From the NCBI RefSeq assembly GCF_041270065.1, contig NZ_CP065958.1, positions 6,200,001 to 6,264,000 of the forward strand: a stretch of 64,000 bases of DNA. Direction: 5' to 3'. Made by a program: the position numbers and the translations under genes. This document shows positions 22,664 to 58,551 of this stretch, in pieces. Below the pieces are notes generated by a model. The model saw only the letters and a list, made by a program, of their open reading frames with translations. It was not told where the DNA came from and did not search any database. Origin of the DNA: Streptomyces fradiae (GTDB lineage Bacteria > Actinomycetota > Actinomycetes > Streptomycetales > Streptomycetaceae). How positions within the stretch are numbered: the stretch's first letter is position 1; every line of letters begins with the position of its first letter.

Positions 22664-22958
22664 CTCCCACGCGCGGAGCTGCCCGGTGGCGAGCAGCCGG
22701 GCAAGGCGTGCGCCACGGCGGGTGGAGGACAGGAGCTGGGCGAACGTACGTACTGTTTACGCAGGTTGGGGCGAGGTCGGCGTCATGGGATCACGGTGGC
22801 GGGTGGTGCGGGCCGCGATCCAGGGCAGAGGCCCGTACGGTGAGTCAGCGTACGGGCACATTGGGTGGACGGTACGGGGCTTTGCCGTCACTCTGGGTGC
22901 TGTCGATCGCGTGGACTGCACGACGCACAAGCACGTACGCACCTGGAGGTGGCCGCGG

Positions 22959-23828: not shown

Positions 23829-24010
23829 GCACGACGGAACTGGCCTGGTTCAAGTCCAGCTACAGCGGCAGCCAGGGTGACAGCTGCGTCGAGGTCGCTG
23901 TCACCGAGCAGACCGTCCACGTACGCGACTCCAAGGACGTCACCCGCCCCGACTTCGCGGTCGGACGCGAGGGCTGGGCGCGGTTCGTGGGGTTCGCGGC
24001 GGAGGCCTGA
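23825..24010 (+). CDS. DUF397 domain protein
   Basis: This 61-residue protein shows the DUF397 pattern from end to end: WFKSSYSGSQGDSCVEVA, then VHVRDSKDVTRPDFAVGREGWARFV. DUF397 proteins (BldB/AbaA-ORFD relatives) are obligate neighbours of DUF5753-type XRE regulators and are thought to antagonise or modulate them. The ATGA overlap with the XRE gene shows co-translation. A hairpin terminator follows. Confidence 0.95.
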   Translation: MSTTELAWFKSSYSGSQGDSCVEVAVTEQTVHVRDSKDVTRPDFAVGREGWARFVGFAAEA

Positions 24011-24068: not shown

Positions 24069-25769
24069 TCAGCCCGTGGTCGGCCCGACAAGCTTCTCGG
24101 CCTCGTCGCGGAGGCTCTTGATTCCCTCCAACGCTGTCTCACGCGCGGCGCTGATTTCCGCACCCGGGTGCGTGAGACCGCTGAGCGACTGTTCCACGTC
24201 CGCGATCCACTCGCTGAGGTGCTGCTCACCGGCGTCGGTGAGATCGTTCCGCTGGCTGAGCGCCACCTCGGTGAAATGATGCCGGAGCGCCTGGCGACGC
24301 TTGTTGATCGCCATCCACTTGCTCTGGTCCTGCGCGATGCTCTTCACGTCCATCAGCGGGCCCATGACCGCCATCGCCCACTGCACCTTTCCGGCCGCGC
24401 CGGCGACCTTCTCCCCCGCCTTGATCTTGCCCCAGGGCTTGAACTTGCCGACGCCGTTGGTGATCTTCCCGCCGGCGTCGAGCACTTTCTGGCCCGCTCG
24501 GGTCTTGTTGAGCCAGTTCGCGACGTTGGCTGCCGCTTCGCCCGGCTCGCCGGCGACCTTCTTGATCCACTCGTGCAGCCTCTTGGCGCCCACCTTCGCG
24601 GCCTTCTCCGCGGCTTCCCTGATGGCCCGTTCGTACGGTGACTCCGTTGGCGCGGCGAGTATCGCCTCGGGGGCGTCGACGTCATTCACCCAGGCCTCGG
24701 GCTCGGGCACGCCATCCCCGTGCTCGGCGACCAGCGCATCGAACGCCGCCCTCACCGATGAGGAGAACTTGACGTCGAAGTCGGTGCGGGCATCGATCAG
24801 TTCCCCGGCGACGGCAGTGGCGATGTCGACGGGGACGACGCCGTTCTTCTCGGAGACGCCGTCGGCGGCTCTGCCTCCCGCCGTTCTGATCCTGGAGGCG
24901 GCGATCTCGCTCTCCCGCTCCAGGGCGTCCAGCACCCCCTCCTTCGCCCGGGAGATCGACCCCTCGGCGTTCTTCGCGGTCTGCGCGGCGTCGAGTTCCT
25001 CGCCGTCCAGTTCCCACCTCTGTTCGGCGTCCTCCAGAACCCGGATGAGTTCGCATACCTGCGCCTTGGGCCGGACACCCTCCACACCAGGTGCCGTGAT
25101 TCTCCGCAATTCGGCGGTGAGGGCGTCGATGCCGCTCTCCGCGACGAGCAACTCGCGGTGCTCATCCGTGAGTTCGGGGTCGTTGGCCGCGTCGACGTAG
25201 TCGCGCGCGTCGGTCGGGATGACCGGGACACGGTCGGCGAAGGGGCCGAGCCGTTTGCGGATCTCGTCGAGGATGACCTCGCGGTCACTGTTCTCGGCGC
25301 TCATCTTGTTGACGACGACGACGCTGCGGTCAGCGAACCCGTCGGCATCGAGCGCCCGCAGAATCGCCTCGGTCTCCGCCTCGCCCGGCAGCTCGCTCGT
25401 TGTCACGATCATCAGCGCGTCCGCGCCGCGCACGCCATGCCGGGCCGCGGCGGAGTGCTCGTCGTTGCCGGACAGCGTTCCGGGCAGGTCGACCAGCGTC
25501 ACGCCGTTCCACGGATACGGCGTCGCCTCCTGCGTCTTGGGTGCCGCGTCAACGAGCCTTTCGACCTCGGCCGCCGGGAGCCGACGCAGTGCCGCGATGA
25601 GCATCGACTTCCCGGCGCTGTACGGACCCAGAAGTGCGATCCGCAGCGGGCTCGTGTCCGCACGGGGCAGGCTCGCTGTCAGGCCCCGCGTGCGAGGGTG
25701 AGCGTTCAGGACCTCCTCGGCCCGTGCACTCAGCGCGAGTACGCGAGCGTCCGGTCCTCCGTCAGTCAT
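24069..25769 (-). CDS. Dynamin-like GTPase (second of a tandem pair)
   Basis: The 566-residue protein has an N-terminal GTPase domain with G1 GPYSAGKS (48-55), G3 DLPG (94-97) and G4 NKMS in place of NKxD. A long helical stalk-like region follows, with Ala/Gly/Lys-rich segments and a weakly hydrophobic stretch near KVQWAMAVMGPLMDV. The layout fits bacterial dynamin-like proteins, which often act in pairs on membranes; membrane action here is inferred. ATG 25769 overlaps the upstream GTPase gene by 8 bases and has AAGGAG upstream. It is the last gene of the eight-gene operon and is followed by a hairpin. No typical transmembrane helix is obvious. Confidence 0.8.
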   Translation of the reverse strand: MTDGGPDARVLALSARAEEVLNAHPRTRGLTASLPRADTSPLRIALLGPYSAGKSMLIAALRRLPAAEVERLVDAAPKTQEATPYPWNGVTLVDLPGTLSGNDEHSAAARHGVRGADALMIVTTSELPGEAETEAILRALDADGFADRSVVVVNKMSAENSDREVILDEIRKRLGPFADRVPVIPTDARDYVDAANDPELTDEHRELLVAESGIDALTAELRRITAPGVEGVRPKAQVCELIRVLEDAEQRWELDGEELDAAQTAKNAEGSISRAKEGVLDALERESEIAASRIRTAGGRAADGVSEKNGVVPVDIATAVAGELIDARTDFDVKFSSSVRAAFDALVAEHGDGVPEPEAWVNDVDAPEAILAAPTESPYERAIREAAEKAAKVGAKRLHEWIKKVAGEPGEAAANVANWLNKTRAGQKVLDAGGKITNGVGKFKPWGKIKAGEKVAGAAGKVQWAMAVMGPLMDVKSIAQDQSKWMAINKRRQALRHHFTEVALSQRNDLTDAGEQHLSEWIADVEQSLSGLTHPGAEISAARETALEGIKSLRDEAEKLVGPTTG

Positions 25770-28722
25770 GTGCGGTCCCATCTCCTTCTCCGCTGATGGA
25801 ATCCGAGCAGATCTCGATCCGCTCGGTGAGGACATCCACGAGGTGTTCCTGCAGGCACGCCCGCACTTCCGCGACATGGGACGCGTCGGTCCAGACGCGG
25901 AGCTCGACCCCCGGCGTCCGGCGTGCCAGACGGATGGCCGCCGGGTCACCGCCCGCAAGAGCCAGGAGCCGACGCATCAGCACGAGGTCGATCGCGTCGA
26001 GGGCGGACCGCACGGCCGACCGCATCCGACCGAGCTGCTCGAACCGCTCCCGGGTGCTGCTGATGTCCGAGGCCTGCGCTGCGGACTGGGCGTCGACCTG
26101 AGCCGAAGCGTCATCGACGATCCGCGCCAACCGTGCTCCGACGAAGTCGTACAGCTCATCGAGGCCGGCCTCGGCCACGGCTCTTGTGGCGCTGGTCCAC
26201 CTGTCCTTCTCCTGCCGTACGCGGTCGACCTCACCGCTCACCGCTTTCGCCGCTCCGGCCAGAGTCTCCGCCACGTAGACCGCCGTCACCGCGGGAGGCG
26301 GCACCGCGAGCTTCTTGGGGACCCCCTTGGCGGTGAGGGAGCCCAGGAGGGTCGTGGCTGCCCCCTTGGCTGCCGCCGCGCCCATGCTGACTGCCTTCAC
26401 GGCAGGACGCGGCCGTACCCGTGGATGCTCGTCGTCCTGCCGTTCCGGGGTGCTCGCCTGCGCGCGCAGCACCCTCTCCCGGTTCCGTGTCTCCTGTTCG
26501 AGCTCGCTCTCGAGAGTCGAGACCAGCTCCTCCAACTCCAGACCGGTGACGAAGTCGCTCCACCGCTGTGCGTGATCCGTTCCGCCCAACGTCCGGACAA
26601 CATCCGGCAGTTGCTCCTTGGCGCGCTGACGTCCGGCTTCGAGTCGGTCGCGGGTGCTGTGGCCCGCGATCCGGAAAGCGTCGAGCAGCGCGGCCTGTTC
26701 ACTCGGTGCCGAGCGTTCGAGGTCGCCCAGCGCGCGGTCGATCTCCGGGAGTTCTTCGCCCAGCCGGTCATGGATCGCGGCGAGCGGCGCCCGTACGCCC
26801 TCGGCCAGCCGAACGGCACGAAGCGGTATCGCGCGCTCGGCGAGGAGCCGGGCGAGGGACTGCTCCAGCTCGGGCAGCCTGCTCGCCCGCAGGGCCCTGT
26901 CTCCCAGCTCCCGGTCCTCCGTGGACAACCCCTCGTGCGCGGCACCGGAGTGGACCGCGAGGATGACGGGCGGGGCGACTCCGAGCGCTGTGGCGACCTG
27001 TTCGATCCGAACGGCGTGCCCCGGCGCCGACTTGAACTCTCTGTCCGGATGATCGGCGAACAGCCGAAGGCGGACCGGTGTGTTGACCAGCCCCTTCACA
27101 TTGACGACAGCCAGCAGGGGTTTCCCCGAGAGGAGAAGCCGCCGGAGTTCCGCGGACTCCTCGTCGCGAAGCGTGTCGGCGTAGTTCCAGATGACCGCGT
27201 CGGCGCTGTCGCATGCCGCCCGCGCGCGCTGCGCGTCGAAGTCGTCGTCCTTCGCGGCGAAGCCGGGCGTGTCCAGGTAGGTCACGGAGCCGACATCGAA
27301 CGCGGAGGTCTTCCGCGTGGTGCGGTGCGCCCCTCGTCCGATCCCGGATCGGTCCGCGTCACGCGTCAGGGCTTTGCGGAGCGTGGTCTTCCCGGACTTG
27401 GTCCTTCCGGCGATGGCCACGAGCAGCCTGCCTCTGACGGCGGGCAGGGGCCGCAAGGCAGCGCGCAGTTCGCGTTCGAGCGTTCCGACGCGGCCGATGA
27501 CCCCGACGAGGTCCTCGCTCTCCATCGCGTGCTCGGAGTACGGCTTTCGCTTCAGGCCGGCCTCGACTTCGGCCCGAAGCGCGGACTGGATATCGCGGTA
27601 GTCCGAGCGGCTCGCGTCCACCGCCCCGGACGGCAGCGCGAGTTCGCCGACCAGAGGATCGAGGGCCTCACGGAGTTCGGGTTCGATACCCCGTACGTCC
27701 ATGGCCGCTGCCACGCGGTCGAACAACGCGGCGTACTTCGTGTACCAGGACTCCAGAGCGCGCAGCTGGTCGACGCCGTGCCGGGGGGCGACCGCCAGGA
27801 GCCCTGTCACGAGCCGTGCGGCCGAACTCGTGGCAGGTGGCGCGGACAGGGAACCGGTCGTGGTCACGGAGGCCGTCGCCGGCGCGTGTTCGATCAGGGC
27901 CCGCGTGTCGTCCGCCGCGAGCAGCTCCAGAGTGCTTCCCGACACGGCGCCGGTGTCGCGGGCCTCGATCGCCCACATCAGGGCGTCACGCCGGTCGGAC
28001 CTGAACCCGGACCGCGCGTCCGGCCCGAGCCAGCGCCACCACCCCGGTCGTACGGAGAGGAACGCCTCGTACGCCTTCTCCGCCGCGATGACGTCCCGCA
28101 CCCTCTCAAGTCGCGTCACCAGGTCCCGGTTCCGCAGATCCTGCGCTGCCGAGATGCTGTGCTGGAGGACGAGCTCCCGCGCGGCTGCCGCACGCCGGGT
28201 GATGCGGGGACGGCTCAGGTCGGCCAGCGTGCTGTCCACGTCGATCTCGCGGATTGACTGCCAGATCTCCTCGGGCCAGGCCTGGTCCGCGCGACGGCAT
28301 GGTTCAAGGGCACCGGGCAGCAGCCGTTCCGCGACCGCCACTGCCGCGAGGTCTGCCCGAAGCGCGTCCACCGGCACTCCTTCAAGCGTCTGAAGGCGAG
28401 GCCGTACTCCTTCAAGCCGCGTCAACTCCCGCAGGACTCTGGCCTCTCCCAGCGTCAGAGTCCCGCCCCGGGCCATGGCCACACGGACCAGTTCGTGTTC
28501 CTCGACGCACGCCGCCACGGCCTCGGAGACCCACGGAAGAGTGCTCCCGGACGGAGGCAGACCGGCACACCCGCACGCCTCGGCCACCGTGTCCACATTC
28601 TCGGCGAGCCGCCGGAGTGCGGCCTGCCCGGCCATGGCGTCGACACCCAAGGGTTCGAGCAGGAGGGCCAGCATCTCGGTTCTGAGGCTCGTCGTTCTGT
28701 CGTTCACTGCCGTGTCACTCAC
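25762..28722 (-). CDS. Large dynamin-like GTPase (first of a tandem pair)
   Basis: In this 986-residue protein a helical N-terminal region of about 430 residues precedes a GTPase domain. G1 is GRTKSGKTT (about 439-447), G3 is DTPGFAA (484-490), and NVKG stands where NKxD is expected. A long helical region follows, with a small Ala/Gly/Leu-rich patch (AAKGAATTLLGSL) that might touch membrane. Domain order and size suggest a dynamin-superfamily protein with an unusual N-terminal extension. It starts at GTG 28722, two bases after the Hsp70-NYN stop, with GAGGAG upstream, and overlaps the next GTPase by 8 bases. The G4 degeneracy leaves nucleotide specificity open. Confidence 0.8.
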   Translation of the reverse strand: MSDTAVNDRTTSLRTEMLALLLEPLGVDAMAGQAALRRLAENVDTVAEACGCAGLPPSGSTLPWVSEAVAACVEEHELVRVAMARGGTLTLGEARVLRELTRLEGVRPRLQTLEGVPVDALRADLAAVAVAERLLPGALEPCRRADQAWPEEIWQSIREIDVDSTLADLSRPRITRRAAAARELVLQHSISAAQDLRNRDLVTRLERVRDVIAAEKAYEAFLSVRPGWWRWLGPDARSGFRSDRRDALMWAIEARDTGAVSGSTLELLAADDTRALIEHAPATASVTTTGSLSAPPATSSAARLVTGLLAVAPRHGVDQLRALESWYTKYAALFDRVAAAMDVRGIEPELREALDPLVGELALPSGAVDASRSDYRDIQSALRAEVEAGLKRKPYSEHAMESEDLVGVIGRVGTLERELRAALRPLPAVRGRLLVAIAGRTKSGKTTLRKALTRDADRSGIGRGAHRTTRKTSAFDVGSVTYLDTPGFAAKDDDFDAQRARAACDSADAVIWNYADTLRDEESAELRRLLLSGKPLLAVVNVKGLVNTPVRLRLFADHPDREFKSAPGHAVRIEQVATALGVAPPVILAVHSGAAHEGLSTEDRELGDRALRASRLPELEQSLARLLAERAIPLRAVRLAEGVRAPLAAIHDRLGEELPEIDRALGDLERSAPSEQAALLDAFRIAGHSTRDRLEAGRQRAKEQLPDVVRTLGGTDHAQRWSDFVTGLELEELVSTLESELEQETRNRERVLRAQASTPERQDDEHPRVRPRPAVKAVSMGAAAAKGAATTLLGSLTAKGVPKKLAVPPPAVTAVYVAETLAGAAKAVSGEVDRVRQEKDRWTSATRAVAEAGLDELYDFVGARLARIVDDASAQVDAQSAAQASDISSTRERFEQLGRMRSAVRSALDAIDLVLMRRLLALAGGDPAAIRLARRTPGVELRVWTDASHVAEVRACLQEHLVDVLTERIEICSDSISGEGDGTAHD

Positions 28723-28724
28723 CG

Positions 28725-30821
28725 CTACTCCTCATGAGGGCGGTGGTATCGGAACGTGGGGAGCGGGCCGGGGCTCGGGGGAATCAGGGCCTGAGGCTGC
28801 CGAGGCACCGTCGCCTGTGCGATCCGGTGGCGAGGCGGAACGCAGGTGCGCGGCGTGAAGACCCACATGCCTTGTGACAAGGTCGCCCCGAGTACCCGCT
28901 CCTTGTCCCGCAACCAGGGATATCTGCTCTGCAACTCGACGTAGTTGTCATTGGTGACGACAGTTCCGTGCGTGTCATCCGCGATCGCCGTGACCAGCGC
29001 GTCACCCTTGCCCTCGGTTCCGGCCGGGGGCTGGCTGAGTTCACCCTTGGCGAGCGCAGAGTCCACGGCCGCGCGTTCCTCCTCCGCGACCTTGTGCCTG
29101 AAGGTGGCGTCGACGACCACGTGAACCACGGCGTCGGGATACCGCGAGGCCAGGGCGTCGCGGGCGGAAAGGAGTTGCGCGAAGGACGGCCGGTCGTCGC
29201 TGCCGTACACCCCGGGCTGCCGCGGCGACCTGCCGATCCACGCCAGGTTGGAGCCGTCCAGCACGAGCACCGCAGGCGCTGAGCCCGTGTTCCGCTTCCG
29301 GGGCTGCGGCGGCAGCGGCCTGGTGGTGGTGTTGCCCGTGAGCAGGTCCTCGAGTTCCCTGCTCACCGCCGGCGTGGGACCACCGGAGCTGAAACTCTTG
29401 ATCTCCTCGTTCAACACCTCCTCGCCGGTGCGTTCAAGTGTCGCCTTGACGTGGAGAAGCCCGTTCGTGTCGTACGTGTACTCCAGCAGGAACCGGGAGT
29501 CCTCACGGGCCCGGGGTTCCCGATATGTGAGCCGGAGGTCCGTCAGCTGCACGTTGTCGGGGTGATCCAGAGGCCGTTCCGGGTCGCCCTCCCAGATCTC
29601 CACGGCGAGGCTGCGGGCGTTGTCCCGGCGCGGCGTGTAGTTCTTGCGTTCCTTCCACGGCAGCGGGGAGTTGCGCGGAATGATCTGACTGAACTTCCGC
29701 TGTCCGGTGTCGTCCGTGACGACCGTACCCAGGGCATGGCTCGTCGCCACCTGGACCACGCCGTCCACCTCCCCCGACAGCACAGCCGCCGCGATGGAGG
29801 CGCCGCGGGCGACCGCCGTCATGGGATTGCAGACGTCGACCTCGACGGGCTGCTGCTGCATGACCTCGGCGACCGCCGCCCGGACGCTCGGGATCTGGCT
29901 GGTGCCGCCGATCATCAGCACCGCGTCAACATCCAGCGGCGCCATGTGCAGGTCGATGAGACACTGCTGGACCGGTGCGAGAGCGCGGTCCACGAGGTCG
30001 GTGATGGCGTCCTCCAGCTCCTCCTGCCACACCTTGACCTCGTCACCGTCCGGAGTCGTGACCCTGACGAAGTCCTCGGAGGACAGACGGATCTTGCTGC
30101 GTTCCACGTCCAGCCCGAACTGCCGCTCCTGCGCGGGCGTCCACGCCGATCGCGCCGGAGCCCGTTCGAGGACCAGGTCACGCAGACGGCGGTCGATCTC
30201 CAGACCACCCAGTTCCGTCACACCCCGTGACGCGAGCTCCTCGAAGAACCCGTCCTGGTAGTCGAGCACGGTGACGTCGATGGTGCCGCCGCCCCAGTCG
30301 AAGACCAGGATCGTGCGGGCCTCCTGCAGCTCGTGCACGTACGAGATCGCCGCCGCCGTCGGCTCGTTGAGCAGCGCCAGGACCTCGATGCCCGCGAACT
30401 GCGCGGCGGCGCGCGTGCGATAGCGCGCGGCACCCGTGGCGTTCGCCGGCACGGTGATCACGGCCTGGTCGATGGCGGTGAGGTTGTCCTCCGCGCCCTT
30501 GCGCATGGCCCGGAAGACGCCGGCGGCCACCGTCGTGGCCGCGTACCTGCGGCCTTGGATCGTGACGTACTCGTCGTTCTTCAGAAGTCGCTTGCAGGCC
30601 TCGGCCGCCTCCTCGGAGCGCAGCTTGGCCTCCCAGCCGAACAACGCTCCCCGGCGCAGCGAACTCATGCCCACCACCGACGGGAAGAGGTACTCGAAGC
30701 CGGGATGACGCCAGTCGGCGTCGATGTGCTGGGCGTCGAGCAACAGCACGTCGGCGTCGTCGCCCAGCCACTGGGCCACCACGGAGTTCGTGGTGCCGAA
30801 ATCGATCCCGGTCGCGGTCAC
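28725..30821 (-). CDS. Hsp70 (DnaK-like) chaperone fused to a C-terminal NYN/PIN-type RNase domain
   Basis: Residues 1-360 of 698 form an Hsp70 nucleotide-binding domain: GIDFGTTNSVVA (phosphate 1), VPANATGAAR, LLNEPTAAAISY, FDWGGGTIDVT and MIGGTSQIPSVR. Residues 360-480 resemble the beta substrate-binding domain. Instead of the helical lid, residues 517-660 look like a NYN/PIN RNase (Zc3h12a-like): LVLDGSNLAW, VVVDATFR, KGDALVTAIA and VVTNDNYVEL supply the expected acidic residues. I infer a chaperone whose substrate binding is tied to RNA cleavage. It starts at GTG 30821 with GGGGAGG upstream and overlaps the upstream gene by GTGA. It sits between the GrpE-like and GTPase genes. Confidence 0.88.
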   Translation of the reverse strand: MTATGIDFGTTNSVVAQWLGDDADVLLLDAQHIDADWRHPGFEYLFPSVVGMSSLRRGALFGWEAKLRSEEAAEACKRLLKNDEYVTIQGRRYAATTVAAGVFRAMRKGAEDNLTAIDQAVITVPANATGAARYRTRAAAQFAGIEVLALLNEPTAAAISYVHELQEARTILVFDWGGGTIDVTVLDYQDGFFEELASRGVTELGGLEIDRRLRDLVLERAPARSAWTPAQERQFGLDVERSKIRLSSEDFVRVTTPDGDEVKVWQEELEDAITDLVDRALAPVQQCLIDLHMAPLDVDAVLMIGGTSQIPSVRAAVAEVMQQQPVEVDVCNPMTAVARGASIAAAVLSGEVDGVVQVATSHALGTVVTDDTGQRKFSQIIPRNSPLPWKERKNYTPRRDNARSLAVEIWEGDPERPLDHPDNVQLTDLRLTYREPRAREDSRFLLEYTYDTNGLLHVKATLERTGEEVLNEEIKSFSSGGPTPAVSRELEDLLTGNTTTRPLPPQPRKRNTGSAPAVLVLDGSNLAWIGRSPRQPGVYGSDDRPSFAQLLSARDALASRYPDAVVHVVVDATFRHKVAEEERAAVDSALAKGELSQPPAGTEGKGDALVTAIADDTHGTVVTNDNYVELQSRYPWLRDKERVLGATLSQGMWVFTPRTCVPPRHRIAQATVPRQPQALIPPSPGPLPTFRYHRPHEE

Positions 30822-31432
30822 ATGCCCTCCCCGTCCGTCGCCTCGTCGTCCCCGGCAGCGTGGTCCCCTCCGTCTGCCCCGGGCAGACGGCGCAGTTGCC
30901 CGGAGAGCACCAGCTTGCCGGTCGCCTGGTCCACGTAGGCCGGACGCAGCACCTCGAACGCCTCGCCGTCTCCTTCCACCACCACGAAGAGCTCGTGCTC
31001 GCCGTCGGGCGCGTCCACGCACCGCACTCCCTGGTCGAGCAGAGCGGCACGGATGCCCTTGCGGAGCGAACCGGCGCTCTGGTGGGGCGCGCCGGCGAGT
31101 AGATCGACCTCGACCATCCGGGCCACGTACTCCTCCCGCGAGCGGAACGCCTCCAGAACGGCCTGGCGCAGGGCCGCCGTCACAGCGGCCTGCGTGGGGC
31201 GCTCCTCCTCCGGGAGGGCGGCCAGGAGGTCCGTCGCCCGCTCGGCGAAACGGGAGAGCAGCAGGGGAGGGCTGAGCAGCTCCTCGGGACGGTAGGTGCG
31301 CGGGGAGTCCTTCGGGGCATCGGCCGCAGCCCGCCGCTTCTCCCGACGATGCTTGAGGCCGTTGTTCCCCTTGGGGGTAACCCGCTTGGGGGCCGCTGTC
31401 GTGTTCCGTCGGCTGCGGGGCACCTTTTTCAC
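30818..31432 (-). CDS. Possible GrpE-like partner of the Hsp70-NYN protein
   Basis: The 204-residue protein starts with a Lys/Arg-rich segment, followed by helices (LLSRFAERATDLLAAL; AALRQAVLEAFRSREEYV). A C-terminal beta-looking part follows, with CVDAPDGEHELFVVVEGDGEAFEVLRPAYVD. The helix-then-beta order and the late LRPAYV resemble GrpE, whose C-terminal domain ends in RxIRPAxV. That, and its position directly before an Hsp70 gene, suggest a nucleotide exchange factor. Similarity is weak, so the call is tentative. It starts at GTG 31432 in a GTGA overlap with the J-like gene and ends in a GTGA overlap with the Hsp70 gene. Confidence 0.7.
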   Translation of the reverse strand: MKKVPRSRRNTTAAPKRVTPKGNNGLKHRREKRRAAADAPKDSPRTYRPEELLSPPLLLSRFAERATDLLAALPEEERPTQAAVTAALRQAVLEAFRSREEYVARMVEVDLLAGAPHQSAGSLRKGIRAALLDQGVRCVDAPDGEHELFVVVEGDGEAFEVLRPAYVDQATGKLVLSGQLRRLPGADGGDHAAGDDEATDGEGM

Positions 31433-37232: not shown

Positions 37233-40168
37233 CAGGCGGTCACTCCAGCGGGAACGGAAGCAGCGGCGGGCAGGTAGACGTAGGCGCCGAGGATGTCGGC
37301 CGGCTTCTGGGCCGTGACCGACAGACCGCGGACGATCTCGCCGGAGGCGGTGCGCACCCGGCGGTGGGCGGCGTCGAGCTCGGCGGCCAGTTCGTCGCCG
37401 TACGTCTCCAGGTAGCCGTTCACTTCCGGCAGTTGGTCGAGAATGCGGGTCATCGTCCGCTGGCCGAAGTGCGGGTCGGTGTTGTCCGACGCCACCGCGT
37501 CGAGCAGTTCGGCCGCCCGCTCGTGCGGCAGCCACACCGCGTTCCGTGGCGCGCCCTCGAAGGCGAGCAGCCGTGCGTCCTCCGCCACCAGCTGGCGTTC
37601 GCCGTTCCTCGATGGCAACGTGAGGTGGAAGCGGTAGCGGACGAGCAGCAGGGTGGTCCTCGTACTCACCGCGTCCGTGGTGATCACGCCGCAGCGGCGG
37701 GCCGGGCGGGCGCCCTCGGCCAGGGTGTCCAGGGCGGCGTTCAGGACATGGGACGCGAGCGCGCCCACGACCGGGTCCGTGCGGACCAGGGCCGCCTCGC
37801 CGCGCGCCACGGCGGGATCGGTCCGGAACGGGATCTCGCGGTCCTTCTCGATCACCTCCGCGCCCACGGTCGACGCGAGGGCGTCGCGCAGTCCGGCCGG
37901 GGTGCCGCCGACCTGGGCGGTGAAGTCCTCGCCGCTGCCGCGCAGCACGGCGTTGAGAGCGCCCAGGGACTCCCGTACGAACGTCCGGATCTCACCCGCG
38001 CCACCCAGCGCCTGGCGGACCGAGGCGACCTCCCGGGCCACCTCCTCCGGGTGCACCGAGCGCTGCGCGAAGCGGGACCGGGACGCGCGCTCGCGCTCCG
38101 CGGCCGAGTTCCAGTCGCTCTCCAGCTTCTCCTTGTTCACCCTGAACGCGTCCGCGCTGAACAGGGCGTCCTGGTCCTCGCGGCCGCGCATCAGCAGCCA
38201 CTCCACGATCGCGTCCGTCACGCCCGTCGACAGCTCGTCCGGGACGGATACGGAGATGCCCAGGTCCTTCTTGATCTGGCGGTGCTTCTTGATCAGCACC
38301 TCCAGGACCTTGCCGTCGATGCCGTTGTCGTCGCCGTACAGGGTGATGACGCGGACCTCGTCGCGGCGCTGGCCGTAACGGTCGACGCGGCCCTCGCGCT
38401 GGTCGTGGCGGGTGGGGTTCCAGGCGAGGTCGTAGTGGAGGACCGCGTCGAAGTGGTGCTGGAGGTTGACGCCCTCGGAGAGGCAGTCGGTGGCGATCAG
38501 GACCCGGCGGGCCGCGGCGTCCTGGCCGGCCTCGGCCGCCAGCGCCTCGATGCGCTCGATGCGCTGCTGCGGGGAGAGCTCTCCTGTGACCGCCTTGACG
38601 ACCGTCTTCGCGCCCAGCGGGCCGCGCTTCTTCTTCTCCGGGTCGTTCTCCAGCTGGTCGGCCAGGTACTTGGCCGTCGGGATGTAACGGCAGAAGACGA
38701 TCGGGTTGTAACCGTCGGCCAGCAGCGCCTTGAGGTGCTTGATCAGCGCCTTCAGCTTGAGATCCTTCTCCGGGCCTTCCAGCTGCTCGGCCCGCTCGGC
38801 GAGTTCCGCGAGCCGCGACCGCGTGGGCGCCTCGTCCGTCTCCGCGCCCGGCGCCACGTCCATGCCTTCCATGGCGTCGCTGTCGGCCGCGTCGCTGTTC
38901 AGCGGGGCACCCAGCTTGTCGGCCTCCTCCGCCGACGCGGCGATCGCCGTCGCCGACCGGGTCGTCAGGGTCTGCGCCGCCGCCCGCGGCGAGGACACCA
39001 GCGAGCGCAGCAGCGCGATCGCCGACCACCAGGCGATCCGCGCCTCGCGGTTGCCCTTGCTGCCCGCCTCCTCGACGCGCTCGCCGGCGTACGCGATGGC
39101 GTCGTCGAGCAGGGCCCGGTAGTCGGGGGAGAGCTTGTAGGTCTCGTCCTTGAAGTAGCGGTCCGACGGGAACGCCGTACGCTCGGCGAGGGAGTCGTCG
39201 GCCAGGCCGTCCTCCTTCGTGAGGTACTGCCGGACGTCCGCGCGCTTGCGCGCCACGAAGTGCTGGGCGAGCAGCTTCCGGCCCGCCTCCGACTCCAGGT
39301 TCACCTCCGCCAGTTCCGGCTTCACCAGGCCGAGCAGGTTGCGGAACGCGGACTCCTTGCCGCTGTGCGGGGTCGCCGTCACAAGGATCAGGTGCCGCTC
39401 CGCGTCCTCCGCGACGCGTCGCAGCAGCTCGTACCGCAGCTGGTTCTGCGCGCTCGTCGAGGTGTCGTCGGCGGCCACGCACGTGTGCGCCTCGTCGACG
39501 ATCACCAGGTCGGGGCAGTGGCGCACGAAGTCGTCGCGGTGGCGCGGGGACTTGATGAAGTCCGTCGACACGATCACGTTCGGGTACCGGTCGAACAGGG
39601 ACTGGCCGAGGTCAAGTCCTCGCTCCAGGCGGGACACCGTCGAGGACAGCACCAGCTCCGCGTCGATGCCGAACTTGCTGCGCAGCTCCTGCTGCCACTG
39701 CTCGGCCAGCGCGGGCGAGCACAGCACCGCGAGGCCCGTCGCCTCGCCCTGCGCGAGCAGCTCGCTCGCGATCAGGCCGGCCTCGACCGTCTTGCCGATG
39801 CCGACGTCGTCCGAGACCAGCATCCGTACGGTCTTCTGGCGCAGCGCCATGAGCAGCGGTACGAGCTGGTAGGCGCGCGGTTCCACCGCGATGCCGGCCA
39901 GCGAGCGGAACGGGCCGGCGCCCGAGCGGAAGCCCACACGCAGCGCGGTGCGCAGCAGGCCCGCCGCCCGCTGGTCGCCGAGGTCGGACGGCTCGGGCGG
40001 CGCGAAGCGGGCCTCCTCGACCTCCTCGAACGGGAACACCGCGGCGATGTCGTCGTCCGAGCCGCCCAGCGGGCGCAGGACGAGCAGGTCGGGCTCGCTC
40101 TCGGGGAGCACCACCCACTCACGGCCGCGGGCCTTCACCAGGGATCCGGCGGAGAACGTGAATGCCAT
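37232..40168 (-). CDS. SNF2-family helicase, DISARM DrmD-like
   Basis: The 978-residue protein starts with a small beta-rich domain (AGSLVKARGREWVVLPES). A SNF2 ATPase follows: motif I DDVGIGKTVEAGL (about 115-127), DEAH box VIVDEAHTC, motif III VTATPHSGKE, and motif VI REGRVDRYGQRRDEV near 590. It matches the DrmD helicase of class 1 DISARM and similar BREX-associated helicases. It would translocate on DNA and work with the neighbouring methyltransferase. ATG 40168 follows the kinase-helicase stop by 56 bases. An in-frame TTG at 40180 is an alternative; the AGAGGA nearby fits neither perfectly. Confidence 0.88.
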   Translation of the reverse strand: MAFTFSAGSLVKARGREWVVLPESEPDLLVLRPLGGSDDDIAAVFPFEEVEEARFAPPEPSDLGDQRAAGLLRTALRVGFRSGAGPFRSLAGIAVEPRAYQLVPLLMALRQKTVRMLVSDDVGIGKTVEAGLIASELLAQGEATGLAVLCSPALAEQWQQELRSKFGIDAELVLSSTVSRLERGLDLGQSLFDRYPNVIVSTDFIKSPRHRDDFVRHCPDLVIVDEAHTCVAADDTSTSAQNQLRYELLRRVAEDAERHLILVTATPHSGKESAFRNLLGLVKPELAEVNLESEAGRKLLAQHFVARKRADVRQYLTKEDGLADDSLAERTAFPSDRYFKDETYKLSPDYRALLDDAIAYAGERVEEAGSKGNREARIAWWSAIALLRSLVSSPRAAAQTLTTRSATAIAASAEEADKLGAPLNSDAADSDAMEGMDVAPGAETDEAPTRSRLAELAERAEQLEGPEKDLKLKALIKHLKALLADGYNPIVFCRYIPTAKYLADQLENDPEKKKRGPLGAKTVVKAVTGELSPQQRIERIEALAAEAGQDAAARRVLIATDCLSEGVNLQHHFDAVLHYDLAWNPTRHDQREGRVDRYGQRRDEVRVITLYGDDNGIDGKVLEVLIKKHRQIKKDLGISVSVPDELSTGVTDAIVEWLLMRGREDQDALFSADAFRVNKEKLESDWNSAAERERASRSRFAQRSVHPEEVAREVASVRQALGGAGEIRTFVRESLGALNAVLRGSGEDFTAQVGGTPAGLRDALASTVGAEVIEKDREIPFRTDPAVARGEAALVRTDPVVGALASHVLNAALDTLAEGARPARRCGVITTDAVSTRTTLLLVRYRFHLTLPSRNGERQLVAEDARLLAFEGAPRNAVWLPHERAAELLDAVASDNTDPHFGQRTMTRILDQLPEVNGYLETYGDELAAELDAAHRRVRTASGEIVRGLSVTAQKPADILGAYVYLPAAASVPAGVTA

Positions 40169-40224
40169 AGTGATCGTCAAATCCTCTGGGTGATGGGTGA
40201 GCGGTCAGTCAGTGGGGCGTTCGG

Positions 40225-43200
40225 TCAGTCGGTGGCGGCAGGGGAGCCGAACCAGCGGGGGTGGGCGGCGGCGATGGCGTCCCAGTCGTCGCCGTGCTGG
40301 AAGCGGACGACATCCCACGTGGCGTCGAAGAGCCGCTCCTCTGCGTCGGCGTCACGCAGCGCGCTCGGCTCGGTGCCGGGGCCGTCGACGAACACGGCGA
40401 CGTTGACGCCGGGCAGCCGGTACACGAAGTCCGGTGCCGCGTTCGCCTCCGTCAGGAAGACGTCCTTCTCGTCCGGGAGGCGCAGCGCACGCGCCTTGGC
40501 CCAGCCCAGGAAGTCGCCCTGCGCGGCGAGTTCGGCAGCCGACACCTCGACAGGTGTGGGATCGGCGGGGGAGTCGGCGAGCAGCCGCCGGTACTGCTCC
40601 GAGCGGGATTCGCCGCGCGCCTCGCGGCGCGCCGTCGCGGACGCCAGACGCACCAACAGGTCCGCCACCGTGTGCCGGTTGATCCGGGAGTGGTCGAGCT
40701 GGTTGCCGTACGTGAGCAGGCAGTCGTAGCAGCCGAGCGCGCAGGCGCGTCCCGGGCGGTGCTCCTCGCCGCCCTCGTCCTTGCCGTCCGGCGAGAAGTG
40801 GCAGATCTCCAGGGCGCGACGAGCCGCCTTCGCGAGGGCGTCGTCCTCCGCCTGGAGGCGGCGGAGCACGCCCGCGCCGCCCTCCGCGGCCTCCATGAGC
40901 AGCAGACGGCGCCGCGGCCCGTCGTCCGGCGGCAGCAGCTCGCTGGACAGCTCGGCGTCCTCCAGCTCGAACTCGGCCTCGATGCCCCGCTCCAGCGCGT
41001 ACATCAGGGTGAGCGCGATCGGCTCGGGAAGTGCTTCGTCGAGGGTGACGACCAGGATGTTGCGGCGGTCCTCCACGAACGGGATGACCCGCTTCGTGCG
41101 GCGCCGCTCGTTGCCGTCCGCGTCGACCAGCGGCAGCTCGCTGGAGTCGCCGGACGCCTCGGCCGCGTCCTTGTCGTTCATCCAGCGGCCGTCGGCCAGG
41201 TCGAGCCAGTAGCCCGGGGGCTCGTCCGTCCGGGCGCGGACCCGGCCGGTGTTGGTGATACGGACGGTCGCGGAGTCGCCGTACGTGATCTCCGCGAGCT
41301 GCCCGCCCGCGGCCTCGGCGATCTTCGCGCTGAGCCGGCCCTTGCGGACGCCGTGGTCATGGAAGCGGTACGAGGTCTCCAGTCGGTAGCCGGCCCGGCG
41401 CCGCTCCTCCTCGTCCGAGGAGATCCGCTCACGGCGGGAGGTGTAGACGGTGTGCAGGTGCAGCAGGCCGTACGTCGCGGACCCCAGCGTCTCCTTGCAG
41501 AAGCCGCAGCGGTCCTCGCGCTCCTTGGGCTCGTGGTGGTAGCCGCAGTTCGCGCAGCGGCGGGCCTCGCCGGTGGTCAGTTCACCAGAGGAGTCCGGCG
41601 GGAGCTGGATACGGGTCACCTGGTAGCGGGCACCCTCGTGGTAGATCAGCGCGCCGGGGCCGAACTCGCGGATGGCGAGGAAGCGGGGACGCTGGAGGTA
41701 GTCGCCGTCGCCGCGACGCCGGCCGATCGTCGGGATGTACGCGGCGAGCGGCAGACGGGGGAAGCTGTAGCCGGGCAGGAAGCCCTCGGAGGCCAGATAG
41801 CGGTACGGGTTGAAGTCGGAGAGGACCGACTTGCTGTCGACGCTCTCGTTCATCAGCAGGTTCAGCTGGGTCTCCGCCTCGCGGCGGCGGGCGTTGGCCC
41901 GGATCCGGTCGCCCTCGGTGAGGCTGTAGTCCAGGCGGCGCTTGTTCTGGACGTACTGGTCGTCGAGTGCGGCACGGAACAGGCTGCGCCAGCGGTCGAA
42001 GGCGCGGTCGAAGCGCTGGGCGACGGTCCTGACCTTGTCGCCGATCCAGTCGTCGTGCCACCAGGTCGTTTCGGTGAAGTCCCGCTCGATCAGCGGGCCG
42101 AGGACGCGCAGCGCAGCGTCCACCGTGCGCCGCTGGGCGCCGTCGTCGTGCGCCGCGGCCTCGATGTCGGGCAGCAGATGCAGGGCGGGTGCCGGACGCT
42201 CACCCGTGTCCGGGTACGAGACGTCGAGGACCTCGGGGAGGGAGCGGCCCAGGCGCAGGCCCGCCTCGGCGATCCAGATGCCCTGGAGGTGGGAGAGGAC
42301 CAGGTCCTCGTTGGCGAGGTCCAGGCGGGGCGGGGCGACCGCGCCCGCCACCATGCGCTCGGAGCGGCGGAAGTAGTACTGGTCGTGGCTGTTGCCGGTC
42401 GCGCAGTACGTCGTCACCAGGGCCGGCTGGCCGCTGCGGCCCGCGCGGCCCGAACGCTGGGCGTAATTGGCGGGCGTGGGCGGTACGTTGCGCATCATCA
42501 CCGCGTTGAGCGAGGAGATGTCGACGCCCAGCTCCATGGTGGGGGAGCAGTACAGCAGCTTCAGCTCCGCCTTGCGGAAGGCCTCTTCGCGCGCCTCCCG
42601 GTCCTCCGGGGACACCTGCGCGGTGTGCTCACGGGCGTACAGGCCGGAGAGGGCGTCGGCCGTCTCGCGATACAGCTTGAGGAAGAACGTGTTGATGCGC
42701 GGGCCGTCGCCGCTCTGGTACGTGCGGGTCAGCGGGTCGTGCGCGCCCGACTCGCCCTTGCCGGCGCGCCACACCAGGGACTGGGCGGCCACCCGGTAGC
42801 CGGTCGCGACGGCGGACGAGGCCCGTCGGTATCGGCCGGCCCGCTGCGGCGTGGCCTCCACCTCCTTCACCAGACCCGCCTTGGTCAGCACCTTCAGCAG
42901 CTCCGTGATGATCAGCTGGAGGTCGTCCTGGTCGAGGTCCCGGAACGTGCGGTCGGCGCGCCGCAGGTACTTGCCGTACTTGCCGCGTGCGGACAGGAAC
43001 AGGCTGGAGCGGTCCATGCCCGGCCGGGAGGGGTGCGGGTAGGCGGTGCCCACGCTGGGCTTGTCGGCGGTGGACAGGATCCACGGGTCCACGAGCCGTT
43101 CCTCGGTCGCCCGCTGGAGGGATTCGAACGCGTCGTCACGGAAGTACGACACGTCGATGGCCAGCGAGCGCCGCATCTCGTTCAGCAGCGTCCGCATGAT

Positions 43201-46200
43201 CTCGGCCCGCAGCGCAGGGTCGGCGTCCCGCAGCCTCTCGTGCGTGCCCTCCCAGCGGTCCTGCTTGGCGGCGACCCAGTCCAGGTCCTCGTAGTCGATC
43301 TCCAGTAGGCCGGTCTGCTCCAGGTTGGGCATGGTGATGCGCCAGCCACGCTCCAGGTCGAGGTAGAGCCGGAAGGCGACCGCGTCCCGCAGGGTGCGGG
43401 CGGCGTTGCGGGCCAGCGATGGAGGAAGATCGGCCTCACCGGTGTAGTCCGCCGGTGAGATGGCGAGCGCGTTGGTCACGGCGGAGGCCAGCTCCTCGTG
43501 GTGCAGACCGTCCTCGCCCGCGTCCAGAGCCGCCCGGTACAGCGCGCCGCGCAGCTGGGTGATCTGCACGAAGTCGTTGAAGTGGCCGGCCTGGAGGGAG
43601 GCGTCCTGGCGGTTGTCGACGAAGGTGAGGAGCTTGCGCGCCTCCTTGTCCAGGGCCTCCTCCGGCACCGACTTCAGCGAGCGCACGATCGACGCGGAGA
43701 CGAGGGAGGTCGCCGACGAACGGCCCTCCTGGTCCAGCGTGGCCAGCTTGGCGAAGTCCCGGCCGCGCGTCTGCTCGTAGGCGACCCCGCAGTGCAGGCA
43801 GAAGAGGAACGGCGACGGGATGAACGCGGCCTTCAGCTCTCCCTCGCCCTCGTGGCCGAACGGGTCGACGGTGACGGCCTTCGGGACGCGGTCGCGGTAC
43901 GTGCGCTTGAGCACCTCCTGGCCCTTGTCGTCCAGCTCCAGCCAGGACTCCGGCAGGCGCCGGTCGTCGACCGCGTACTGCGTGTTGGACGGCCACTCGC
44001 GCTCGTGGTCCACGTACAGATAGCCGTCGCCCTGCCGGCCACCGGTCGCCGAGGTGTCGCGGCGCGCCTCGTAGCGCACCTCGCCGTCCTTCTCCGTGCG
44101 CCACACGGTCAGGTACTCCTGCCCGCACTCCCGGCAGAAGGCGAGCGGCATCAGCAGCTTGCCGCCGCTGCCCGGCTGTTCGAGCTGGTAGGAGCGGGTG
44201 AGGTGGCGGGAGGACTTGTTCTCCAGGGTGACGTAGACCGTGTCGCCCTTGGAGAGGAACTGGTGCAGGCGGAAGGCAAACAGCGGCCGCTCGTTGCGCG
44301 GGTTGAGCGCCTGGGAGCCGGCCTCCAGGGTGGCGCGGATCGCCTTCGCGCACAGCTCCTCGTCGACGCCGGAGGCCTCGTGCAACGCGCGCGCCGCGGC
44401 CTCGATCTGCGCCGGCGGCCGCCGTACGAGACCGCCCGTGGCGGCGTCCTCGACCAGGCCGAAGCGGTCCTCGATCCAGCGGGCCAGCGGGTCGCGCACC
44501 AGGTCGTCGTAGGCGCGCGGGGCGGGGGCGGTGAGGCGCTCGGCCGGCACGGTGGCGGGGGCCTCGCCGGTCGCGCGGACCAGGGTCTCGCCGATGACGT
44601 GCTCGGGCCGGACCTGCGTGCCGAACAGCGTGCTCGCCACACCGGCGACCACCCGCCGCTGGTCCGCCAGGGTGCCCTCGGTCGACATGGTGGCCGACGT
44701 GCCGATGCACTGGAGGTCCTCCGCCTGGCAGGCCTCCCGGACGCGGCGGATCAGCAGGGCCACGTCGGCGCCCTGGCGGCCGCGATAGGTGTGCAGTTCG
44801 TCGAAGACGAGGAACTCCAGGCCCCGCGCCATCCTGATCAGGCTCGCCCGGTCGGCCGGGCGGGTCAGCATCAGCTCCAGCATCACGTAGTTGGTGAGCA
44901 GGATGTCCGGCGGGTTGTCGCGGATCTCCTTGCGCCTCGCGTCGTCCTCCTGGCCCGTGTAGCGGGCGAAGGTGACGGGCTCACGGCCCGCGCCATAGCC
45001 GTCGCGCAGGTACTTCTCCAGCTCGCGCAGCTGGCTGTTGGCGAGCGCGTTCATCGGATACACGATGATCGCCCGTACTCGCTTCGGGGCGTTCGGACCC
45101 TCCGCGTCGCGCTCGTGGAGCACCTTGTCGACGATCGGGACGATGTAGGAGAGCGACTTGCCGGAGCCGGTGCCCGTCGTCAGGACGTACGAAGCTCCCG
45201 ACGCGGCGGCGTCGATGGCGTCGCGCTGGTGCTGGTGCAGGAGGAGCGGCCGGCCGTCGCAGACGGTGCCACCCTCCGTCTTCCTCGCCTGGAAGATGCG
45301 GGCGCACTCGGGGTGCAGCACCTTCTGCTGGGCGAGTTCCACCACCGTGCCGCCGCCCTGGAAGAACGGGTTGAGCGACACCCAGGGGTTCGGCCACTGG
45401 GACTTGTCGTCGAGGTCCTTCTCGACGTACGCCTTGACGCGCTCGTCGCGGATGACGGTGCCGCCCTCCGTGAAGGAGCGGTAGTCGCGGATCAGCGCCT
45501 GATGGACGCCGAAGACGTCCATGGCGGTGCCGGAGGCGGTCACCGGGGCGGGGGCCTGCTCCGGGGCGGTGGCCGGGGCAGGGGCGGACCCACGCAGGGG
45601 GAGCGTGGGATCGAGGTCACGCCAGGAGGGGATCAGGGAATCGCCGTCCGACGGCACGGCGAGCGGGAGCAGGGCGTCCCGTACGGCCACGGCGTCGGCC
45701 GGGCGGTCGGCCGGCTGCTTGGCGAGGAGCCGGTCCACGAGACGGGCCAGCTCGGCGGGAATCTCCGTGCGGATCGCGCGGACGGGGCTCGGCTCCTGGT
45801 GGACGTGCCGTTCGGCGAGTTCGTACGCGGACTCGCTGGTGAACGGAGGGACGCCGACCAGCATCTCGTACAGCACGCAGCCGAGCGCGTACAGGTCGGC
45901 GGCCTGCGTCACCTGCTTGGCCTGGCACTGCTCCGGAGCCATGTACCGGGCGGTGCCCACACTGACGCCCGTGCTGGTCAGACGGGTCTGGTCCGGGTCG
46001 TCGACGATGCTGCCCATGCCGAAGTCGAGCACCTTGACCGTGCCGCCCCGGGTGAGCATGACATTGGCGGGCTTCAGGTCCCGGTGGACCACGCCCCGCG
46101 CGTGCGCGGCGGCGAGGCCGGCGGCGACCTGGGCACCGATGGCGGCGACCCAGGAGACGGGGAGCTGCGGCTCCTCCTCGATGAGGTCGCGCAGCGAGGC

Positions 46201-46524
46201 GCCGTCCAGGAACTCCATCGCCAGGTAGGGCAGACCGTCACGGTCCGCGGCGATGCCGCCCTCGATGATCCGGGTGAGGTTGGGGTGGTGATCAAGGTGC
46301 CGCATGATGCCCACTTCGCGGGCGAAGCGCTCCACGGCCTTGGTGCCACCGCTGGTGTCGATCCGGCCTCCGGTGCGGCGGCGGAGGATCGTCTTCACGG
46401 CGACCTTGCGCTCGGGTGAGCCCTCGGGGGCACGCAGGTCCTCGGCCTGATGGACCTCCCCCATGTTGCCCCTGCCGATGACACGCACGATGCGGAATCT
46501 GCCGTCGACGAGCTCGTGGCTCAC
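40225..46524 (-). CDS. Ser/Thr protein kinase fused to DUF1998-type helicase with nuclease-like tail
   Basis: In this 2099-residue protein, residues 10-285 are a Hanks-type kinase with GRGNMGEV, VAVK, HRDLKPAN (D149), DFG (D167) and APE. A Pro/Ala linker (about 305-335) leads to an SF2 helicase: TGTGSGKS near 450, DELHTYRG near 576, GTSATMST, and QRSGRAGRSGQP near 1358. Zinc-type cysteines follow (CANCGYHH, CGFC; then CALGCYDCLLTYGNQLDH near 1933, the DUF1998/MrfA signature). The end (APDFVYRLP, VAVFVDGPG, RDADAEERLFD) resembles a PD-(D/E)XK fold without the Lys. It recalls DruE of Druantia or DISARM helicases, plus a kinase. It starts at GTG 46524 with GAGGAG upstream and leads the operon. 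Confidence 0.9.
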   Translation of the reverse strand: MSHELVDGRFRIVRVIGRGNMGEVHQAEDLRAPEGSPERKVAVKTILRRRTGGRIDTSGGTKAVERFAREVGIMRHLDHHPNLTRIIEGGIAADRDGLPYLAMEFLDGASLRDLIEEEPQLPVSWVAAIGAQVAAGLAAAHARGVVHRDLKPANVMLTRGGTVKVLDFGMGSIVDDPDQTRLTSTGVSVGTARYMAPEQCQAKQVTQAADLYALGCVLYEMLVGVPPFTSESAYELAERHVHQEPSPVRAIRTEIPAELARLVDRLLAKQPADRPADAVAVRDALLPLAVPSDGDSLIPSWRDLDPTLPLRGSAPAPATAPEQAPAPVTASGTAMDVFGVHQALIRDYRSFTEGGTVIRDERVKAYVEKDLDDKSQWPNPWVSLNPFFQGGGTVVELAQQKVLHPECARIFQARKTEGGTVCDGRPLLLHQHQRDAIDAAASGASYVLTTGTGSGKSLSYIVPIVDKVLHERDAEGPNAPKRVRAIIVYPMNALANSQLRELEKYLRDGYGAGREPVTFARYTGQEDDARRKEIRDNPPDILLTNYVMLELMLTRPADRASLIRMARGLEFLVFDELHTYRGRQGADVALLIRRVREACQAEDLQCIGTSATMSTEGTLADQRRVVAGVASTLFGTQVRPEHVIGETLVRATGEAPATVPAERLTAPAPRAYDDLVRDPLARWIEDRFGLVEDAATGGLVRRPPAQIEAAARALHEASGVDEELCAKAIRATLEAGSQALNPRNERPLFAFRLHQFLSKGDTVYVTLENKSSRHLTRSYQLEQPGSGGKLLMPLAFCRECGQEYLTVWRTEKDGEVRYEARRDTSATGGRQGDGYLYVDHEREWPSNTQYAVDDRRLPESWLELDDKGQEVLKRTYRDRVPKAVTVDPFGHEGEGELKAAFIPSPFLFCLHCGVAYEQTRGRDFAKLATLDQEGRSSATSLVSASIVRSLKSVPEEALDKEARKLLTFVDNRQDASLQAGHFNDFVQITQLRGALYRAALDAGEDGLHHEELASAVTNALAISPADYTGEADLPPSLARNAARTLRDAVAFRLYLDLERGWRITMPNLEQTGLLEIDYEDLDWVAAKQDRWEGTHERLRDADPALRAEIMRTLLNEMRRSLAIDVSYFRDDAFESLQRATEERLVDPWILSTADKPSVGTAYPHPSRPGMDRSSLFLSARGKYGKYLRRADRTFRDLDQDDLQLIITELLKVLTKAGLVKEVEATPQRAGRYRRASSAVATGYRVAAQSLVWRAGKGESGAHDPLTRTYQSGDGPRINTFFLKLYRETADALSGLYAREHTAQVSPEDREAREEAFRKAELKLLYCSPTMELGVDISSLNAVMMRNVPPTPANYAQRSGRAGRSGQPALVTTYCATGNSHDQYYFRRSERMVAGAVAPPRLDLANEDLVLSHLQGIWIAEAGLRLGRSLPEVLDVSYPDTGERPAPALHLLPDIEAAAHDDGAQRRTVDAALRVLGPLIERDFTETTWWHDDWIGDKVRTVAQRFDRAFDRWRSLFRAALDDQYVQNKRRLDYSLTEGDRIRANARRREAETQLNLLMNESVDSKSVLSDFNPYRYLASEGFLPGYSFPRLPLAAYIPTIGRRRGDGDYLQRPRFLAIREFGPGALIYHEGARYQVTRIQLPPDSSGELTTGEARRCANCGYHHEPKEREDRCGFCKETLGSATYGLLHLHTVYTSRRERISSDEEERRRAGYRLETSYRFHDHGVRKGRLSAKIAEAAGGQLAEITYGDSATVRITNTGRVRARTDEPPGYWLDLADGRWMNDKDAAEASGDSSELPLVDADGNERRRTKRVIPFVEDRRNILVVTLDEALPEPIALTLMYALERGIEAEFELEDAELSSELLPPDDGPRRRLLLMEAAEGGAGVLRRLQAEDDALAKAARRALEICHFSPDGKDEGGEEHRPGRACALGCYDCLLTYGNQLDHSRINRHTVADLLVRLASATARREARGESRSEQYRRLLADSPADPTPVEVSAAELAAQGDFLGWAKARALRLPDEKDVFLTEANAAPDFVYRLPGVNVAVFVDGPGTEPSALRDADAEERLFDATWDVVRFQHGDDWDAIAAAHPRWFGSPAATD

Positions 46525-46653
46525 TGCCGCTCCTCTGCCCTCTGCCCGCGTTCACCTGCTGATCTGCCTGCCGCCCGCCCATCGTGCCAGAGCGGGCGGT
46601 GAGGCGGCCGTCACTGTACACGAAGCAAGGAGGAGATGACGAGTGTTCTGTCT

Positions 46654-46668
46654 GTTGACATCGTCAAC
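46654..46668. promoter_or_regulatory. Palindromic operator candidate, perfect copy (GTTGAC-N3-GTCAAC)
   Basis: GTTGACATCGTCAAC has the same six-base arms as the site at 8187. It lies between the divergent kinase-helicase operon (-) and the broken helicase gene (+), 130 bases from the operon's GTG start. It overlaps the -35 of a rightward promoter, so binding there should repress. Confidence 0.6.
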
Positions 46669-46684: not shown

Positions 46685-46711
46685 CCCCGTGGAGCGAATG
46701 GGGTGGGTGGC

Positions 46712-58523: not shown

Positions 58524-58551
58524 GCGCACACAGGACACATCGGGGGAGCAC

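Follow-up and report, generated by a model that had tools for sequence, protein, structure and literature searches.

An eight-gene operon, whose genes are here called A to H, occupies positions 24,069 to 46,524 of a 64,000-nucleotide window of Streptomyces fradiae DNA (RefSeq assembly GCF_041270065.1, contig NZ_CP065958.1, positions 6,200,001 to 6,264,000 of the forward strand). We consider it rather likely that this operon is a co-expressed defense stack in which a DNA-directed layer (A-B-C) comes first, and RNA- and membrane-directed layers follow as exchangeable cargo with a trigger of their own. An anti-phage role is probable, judging from the neighbors and the gene families involved. The genes, in window coordinates and in the order in which they would be read, are as follows.

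40225..46524, minus strand: A, Ser/Thr kinase fused to a DruE/MrfA-like DEAD helicase with an MZB domain; 2099 amino acids (aa), GTG start; kinase at residues 11-276 (~45697-46494), helicase part at ~40717-45234
37232..40180, minus strand: B, SNF2-type helicase, DpdE/DrmD-like, 982 aa; start at TTG 40180 or ATG 40168
33075..37232, minus strand: C, N6-adenine methyltransferase (DrmMI/PglX/type IIG-like), 1385 aa; variable part at 33078-35432
31429..33078, minus strand: D, all-helical protein, 549 aa; TPR-type repeats at about residues 313-419 (31822-32142)
30818..31432, minus strand: E, GrpE-like fold, 204 aa
28725..30821, minus strand: F, Hsp70 nucleotide-binding domain and substrate-binding subdomain beta (~29379-30821), with an NYN/Zc3h12a RNase domain instead of the lid (~28797-29267)
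25762..28722, minus strand: G, dynamin-like GTPase of LeoBC type, 986 aa
24069..25769, minus strand: H, dynamin-like GTPase of LeoA type, 566 aa

All eight frames are open on the minus strand. A first-pass annotation, made from the letters alone, had described a leftward set of eight genes with tight junctions, and its values were reproduced exactly from the open reading frame coordinates. A and B are separated by 56 nucleotides (nt) if B starts at the ATG at 40168, or by 44 nt if it starts at the TTG at 40180; B and C overlap by 1 nt, and the C-D, D-E and E-F overlaps are 4 nt each; F and G lie 2 nt apart, and the G and H frames share 8 nt. The eight genes are presumably co-transcribed, and the enzyme activities and order of action discussed below are likewise predictions. 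Scans of positions 28000-47300 for sigma-70 promoters (no promoter-like site) and for terminators (seven terminator-like sites versus 5.1 in shuffled sequences, none at the C-D junction) were uninformative.

The order A to H recurs. It was found in seven loci, all from Streptomyces (the window, L002, L003, L005, L006, L007 and L053), with A complete in L053 and short only of its first 172 residues in L006 (seen as L054), while the stretch fetched for the other four covers only the C-terminal half of A. Confinement of the combination to this one genome was one of the outcomes that the first-pass annotation had said would refute it; the six further loci rule out a one-genome accident and, together with the Pfam domains, bear out its division of the operon into a DNA-acting half, an Hsp70-RNase half and dynamin-like GTPases.

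A, B and C form the core. Pfam detected kinase, DEAD, Helicase_C and MZB domains in A, which matched DruE3 models of PADLOC over several stretches (best, 336 bits) as well as a PD-T4-6-type kinase. B has helicase motifs (Pfam), and its best PADLOC model was the DpdE profile (1792 bits, scored on 882 of 982 aa), with DrmD models at 281-305 bits. C was recognized as an Eco57I/N6 methylase (Pfam) and matched DrmMI at 229 bits (PADLOC). In blocks of 100 residues, the mean identity of 24 relatives to the window's C is 67-85% before residue 600 and 34-65% beyond it, as would be expected of changing target specificity; the same measure gives 68-96% for A (18 relatives) and 81-94% for B (24 relatives). 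B was present in 63 of the 392 genomes of a genus sample (E 1e-60), and D lay within 15 kb of it in only five of these (G000, G226, G143, G299 and G144). A-B-C was held together in all 20 further B regions, opened since no D adjoined B there, and either other cargo or none stood behind it. L132 and L133 lack the fusion of the kinase to A, and A is split into two frames in L118.

Matches to B also occurred in 64 plasmid records (tblastn). Seven of these regions were opened (Nocardioides, D. radiodurans, Rhodococcus, Acidithiobacillus, Nostoc, D. radiophilus and Planktothrix), and every one combines a large DEAD/DEAH helicase, judged from product name and length, with an SNF2 gene and a DNA methyltransferase in varying order. 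Plasmid cores of other phyla apparently lack the kinase fusion, since their complete helicases, at ~1700 aa, leave no room for it. An AAA ATPase-McrC pair follows the Nocardioides core with a 4-nt overlap, and McrB-McrC lies ~3 kb downstream of the D. radiodurans core.

The second half opens with a chaperone set. Neither D nor E has a Pfam match up to E 0.01, and sequence profiles of both returned no convincing relatives among solved structures. D had been taken for a J-like protein, a designation that found no support, its J-like C-terminus being unproven: DnaJ was matched in none of 26 family members (Pfam, up to E 5), the HPD motif is missing at the aligned hairpin in the 26, and hhalign gave a probability of 2% against the J domain, albeit with a poor template in which one of three J sequences was out of frame. 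D is a helical protein whose structure matches are dominated by TPR, a generic fold match. The GrpE-like assignment of E was upheld by its predicted fold. F matches HSP70 at 1.6e-67 and carries RNase_Zc3h12a (NYN) (Pfam). It aligns with DnaK to about residue 481, and the HSP70 profile match stops at position 492 of 599; no alpha-helical lid of the substrate-binding domain was found, and the NYN domain lies among the residues past the profile match. The acidic NYN positions D522, D571, D607 and D625 are invariant in all ten aligned F members. Another NYN fusion is P0174, 1064 aa long, which combines AAA domains with an NYN at its C terminus that is 42% identical to that of F. D-E-F matched no PADLOC defense model.

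G and H both have GTPase domains (Pfam), and PADLOC paired G with LeoBC (118 bits, 1.8e-34) and H with LeoA (164 bits, 1.8e-48); G has about 360 residues ahead of its LeoBC match. G-H occurs without adjoining D-F in four genomes, and the contig of a fifth is too short to tell.

An alignment-based scan for D, with one genome per species, yielded 22 loci, 21 from Streptomyces and one from an Actinobacteria bacterium, and D was found in 32/392 genomes of the genus sample, the window's own included. Joining the species scan to 31 genus-sample regions and dropping four duplicates gave 50 distinct D-E-F loci, the window among them, whose contexts were assigned by sequence clustering beyond a few model-tested loci. 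A-B-C stands directly upstream and G-H downstream in seven; three have G-H and a deleted core; 11 have a UvrD-type SF1 helicase upstream (Pfam-tested in L012, the rest by clustering); and seven have Druantia IV genes upstream (DruF4, DruL4 and DruE4 tested in L076, six by clustering). A-B lies downstream of D-E-F in two loci and is divergent in one. On a quick tree of F, built without bootstrap, the Druantia IV context forms one starred clade, and the A-B-C association (deleted cores included, L008 left out) needs three changes and comes in three arrangements. Outside the genus D is rare: the 396 genomes of a phylum sample held it twice (the window's own genome and one of the same genus), named relatives come from Streptomyces and one Kitasatospora, and none was found in the plasmid collection. 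Two further contexts may be mentioned here. In L057, L070 and L082, D-E-F adjoins a kinase 30-33% identical to A, an SNF2 helicase 26-28% identical to B and a member of the N6-methylase cluster, which may be a MADS-like system. A DndB-like gene lies upstream of D-E-F in L012 (called by Pfam), L072 (PADLOC) and L015, L017, L023, L066, L074 and L075 (clustering), with methylase genes nearby.

Behind C, relatives carry quite different genes: k7, k8, k10 and k12 (no clear family), the PASTA gene k13, the EcsC gene k14, the HEC-07-like k9, or nothing at all. Beyond this slot, in relatives and in the window, stands an XRE/DUF5753-DUF397 pair on the opposite strand, and relatives have a sigma-70 type gene divergent upstream of A. 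The corresponding features of the window are these.

23825..24010, plus strand: DUF397 protein, conserved boundary of the cargo slot
22803..23828, plus strand: XRE/DUF5753 regulator adjoining DUF397, conserved boundary
46715..47224, plus strand: homologue (42% over ~200 aa) of the sigma-70 type gene divergent upstream of A in relatives

The XRE/DUF397 boundary was reached in 19 of 22 regions, and 21 of the 23 genes between C and the boundary in these 19 are co-directional with the core, the two exceptions being frames of 63 and 73 aa that adjoin the XRE gene. A 4-nt overlap with C is seen for the D-H cargo in five of the seven intact loci (the window, L002, L006, L007 and L053), and for another cargo in 2 of 22 regions.

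The D-H cargo is scattered over the phylogeny of the core as if at random. On a quick B tree, likewise without bootstrap (29 proteins; eight rows, being duplicates, partial copies or paralogues, were left out), the D-H label takes six changes, at least five of them forced by starred branches, while shuffled labels took 6.4 on average and 248 of 500 shuffles came as low as observed. L005 and L115 have almost identical B genes, the former with D-H and the latter with k7 as cargo. Compared with the window, L002 and L006 show less synonymous divergence in D-H than in B and C, and L003 less in D-H than in C; together with the scatter on the B tree, this is consistent with a cargo that is exchanged as one block.

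In six cases (five loci and one protein record), natural deletions have removed most of the core while sparing the 5' end of A, and the downstream cargo is retained in all five loci. Codons 1 to ~56, ~50 and ~63 of A are joined to the tail of C in L004, L008 and L009, respectively, with differing breakpoints and with D-H kept. L144 joins codons 1 to ~94 of A to the last residues of F, followed by G-H, and L146 has A codons 1 to ~104 and the C tail in different frames, followed by other cargo and G-H. Protein P0084, known from its protein record with its neighborhood unseen, joins residues 1-449 of A to F from ~485, a natural kinase-NYN fusion. The junction preserves the reading frame in five of the six, in a small sample of which some were found because the frame is open; in L008 a frameshift follows the junction, and the frame is also broken in D and in F. 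Retention of A's 5' end suggests that the cargo relies on A's promoter for its expression. The first 104 codons of A occur in 54 of the 392 genomes, 51 of which also have B, so core loss is uncommon overall; the three without B are the deletions in G136 (L146) and G164 (L009), and G130, where the match is too near the contig end for a whole A. Omega for D-H is 0.14-0.40 in the core-deleted L004 and L009 and 0.10-0.48 in the intact L002, L003 and L006.

These observations divide the operon into three modules, A-B-C, D-E-F and G-H, and can be assembled into a conditional scheme. C would methylate the cell's own DNA with a target specificity that differs between strains; invading DNA that lacks this mark would be the target of helicases A and B, and the kinase of A could be a switch or relay. 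The region downstream of C is an exchangeable cargo slot, filled here by D-E-F, in which the Hsp70 cycle could position or gate the NYN RNase that takes the place of the lid, with the GrpE-fold E as putative exchange factor and the TPR protein D as a candidate adaptor receiving the client or trigger, and by G-H, a Leo/Eleos-type dynamin-like pair that may act at the membrane. The operon would thereby co-express DNA-, RNA- and membrane-level layers; the cargo probably has its own trigger, since it persists without the core. More tentatively, and with the odds somewhat against it, D-E-F could be a portable chaperone module recruited separately by unrelated helicase systems (Druantia IV, an SF1 helicase of HelD-like appearance and the A-B-C core), with an RNase-for-lid Hsp70 that makes the ATP cycle an RNase switch, and with an exchangeable slot that permits effector swaps and the loss of a core without loss of the effector.

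The first-pass annotation had instead proposed one pathway, in which foreign DNA is detected by A-B-C and signaled by the kinase to D-H as dedicated effectors. The tight junctions and the seven loci of identical order are what such a pathway would predict, and the kinase-NYN protein P0084 and the three changes and arrangements of the D-E-F/A-B-C association on the F tree can be added in its favor. Its modules separate, however: A-B-C mostly occurs without D-H (D lies within 15 kb of B in only five of the 63 B-bearing genomes above), G-H without adjoining D-F in four genomes, D-H survives core loss in L004, L008 and L009, and the cargo is scattered over the core phylogeny. The separate modules, the swaps between near-identical cores and the cargo without a core leave the view of the eight genes as one obligate pathway unsupported, and the swaps and deletions make an integrated pathway, which we judge unlikely, less probable than the layered stack. 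Nor is it likely, to much the same degree, that independent systems have simply piled up in a hotspot between the sigma factor and the XRE/DUF397 pair in a combination without functional advantage. Conserved flanks around variable content, other defense genes nearby and modules found alone are all typical of what this explanation would predict, yet the cargo is co-directional with the core (21/23), D-H overlaps C by 4 nt in five of seven loci and another cargo does so in two of 22 regions, and five of six deletions are in frame, small and partly frame-selected as that sample is. Least probable, and in our opinion quite improbable, is that D-E-F(-G-H) is a chaperone set for stress or envelope homeostasis rather than defense; Hsp70, a GrpE fold and near-confinement to Streptomyces and relatives (2/396) speak for it, whereas its patchiness (32/392), its partnership with helicase systems such as Druantia IV and the DnaJ and GrpE genes elsewhere in the same genome speak against it.

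The layered stack that we favor has to accommodate several awkward facts. Most cargo genes begin 10-174 nt past C and do not overlap it, a point that also belongs to the credit of the hotspot, and 19 of the 50 D-E-F loci have no recognized operonic partner. NYN is absent from both Druantia-IV-linked Hsp70s that were scanned (Pfam), three more such Hsp70s have no NYN-like tail by eye, and the domain looks degenerate in L072 and L073, though Pfam still detects it in L072; RNase activity is therefore not a constant part of the chaperone set. As for the omega values, they average the time before and after each deletion, and those of L004 for D (0.40) and E (0.27) are somewhat above those of two of the three intact loci.

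Comparison with known systems places the operon near several of them. The core of DISARM is drmA-drmB-drmC, with drmC of PLD type. B resembles the DrmD SNF2 helicase and C the DrmMI methyltransferase, but the best profile for B is DpdE, and the Pfam lists of A-H contain no drmC-type PLD domain; A carries an MZB domain with regard to DUF1998/drmB, and DrmB is not among the best 25 of its 61 PADLOC matches. Druantia types are defined by the partners DruA-D, DruF/G, DruH or DruF/L. A matches DruE3, and Druantia IV genes are direct neighbors of D-E-F in other strains, but A is kinase-fused, its partners are an SNF2 helicase and a methyltransferase, and DruF, DruH, DruL and DruA-D are not among the PADLOC matches of D-H or the best 25 of A, B and C. 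The earlier attribution of A-B-C to DISARM or Druantia was rejected. The Dpd system, which places 7-deazapurine in DNA, has the modification genes DpdA-D beside DpdE; these are not among the PADLOC matches shown for the eight genes, a scan that stopped short of the flanking genes.

Closer in overall composition are the CoCoNuT superoperons, apparent operons in which, according to passages of PMC11090510, STK, YprA/DUF1998, SWI2/SNF2, PglX and Druantia III accompany an Hsp70 homologue and RNases, and for which a layered defense was proposed. DNA-restriction modules, an Hsp70 homologue and RNases in one operon are common to both, but here the RNase is an NYN on the Hsp70 itself, the GTPases are of Leo type rather than McrB, the partner has a GrpE fold, and A-H has no McrB, McrC, HEPN or CARF match (Pfam). 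CoCoNuT systems are marked by an NxD McrB GTPase with a McrC homologue, and membership of the operon among them was rejected. The 'last-resort' effector order suggested in the first-pass annotation, a hypothesis, resembles the echeloned defense proposed there (PMC11090510, same passages). GAP1-N2 DO-GTPase conflict systems unite HSP70, GrpE and DnaJ-FNIII in actinobacterial neighborhoods, as set out in passages of PMC7159879. They share the company of GTPases, HSP70 and GrpE, and differ in that the GTPases here are Leo/dynamin-like and stand with an NYN fusion and a helicase-methyltransferase core; GAP1 and DO-GTPase had no Pfam match in A-H up to E 0.01, in a library whose holding of such models was unchecked. 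Eleos is described as a dynamins-like defense system in passages of PMC11811056; the adjacent LeoBC-type G and LeoA-type H resemble it, but their place here is that of cargo, downstream of a DNA core and an Hsp70-RNase. The passages of PMC11090510 and PMC7159879 mentioned above describe no set of this composition, and none was found in the literature by title and start of abstract, a search mostly without subscription papers that leaves its absence unproven.

The locus provides a defined case of a DNA-defense core with an interchangeable cargo slot, in which natural swaps and core deletions can be compared. With its chaperone-RNase architecture, it also opens to experiment the question whether Hsp70 cycling can gate a toxic nuclease in immunity, and D-E-F is unrepresented in the PADLOC defense models used. 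Close to the operon lies a GmrSD-type restriction gene (GmrSD_N and GmrSD_C, Pfam; 15289-16962, plus strand), which suggests a defense island. An 805-aa SMC/AAA_21 ATPase (Pfam) with a 132-aa partner frame occupies 16946-19758 on the minus strand, and homologues of this ATPase are also near L129, L130, L146 and L151. Finally, positions 54418-62212 hold a 59-aa frame followed by genes that resemble, by eye and with no search made, a cluster for a peptide natural product.

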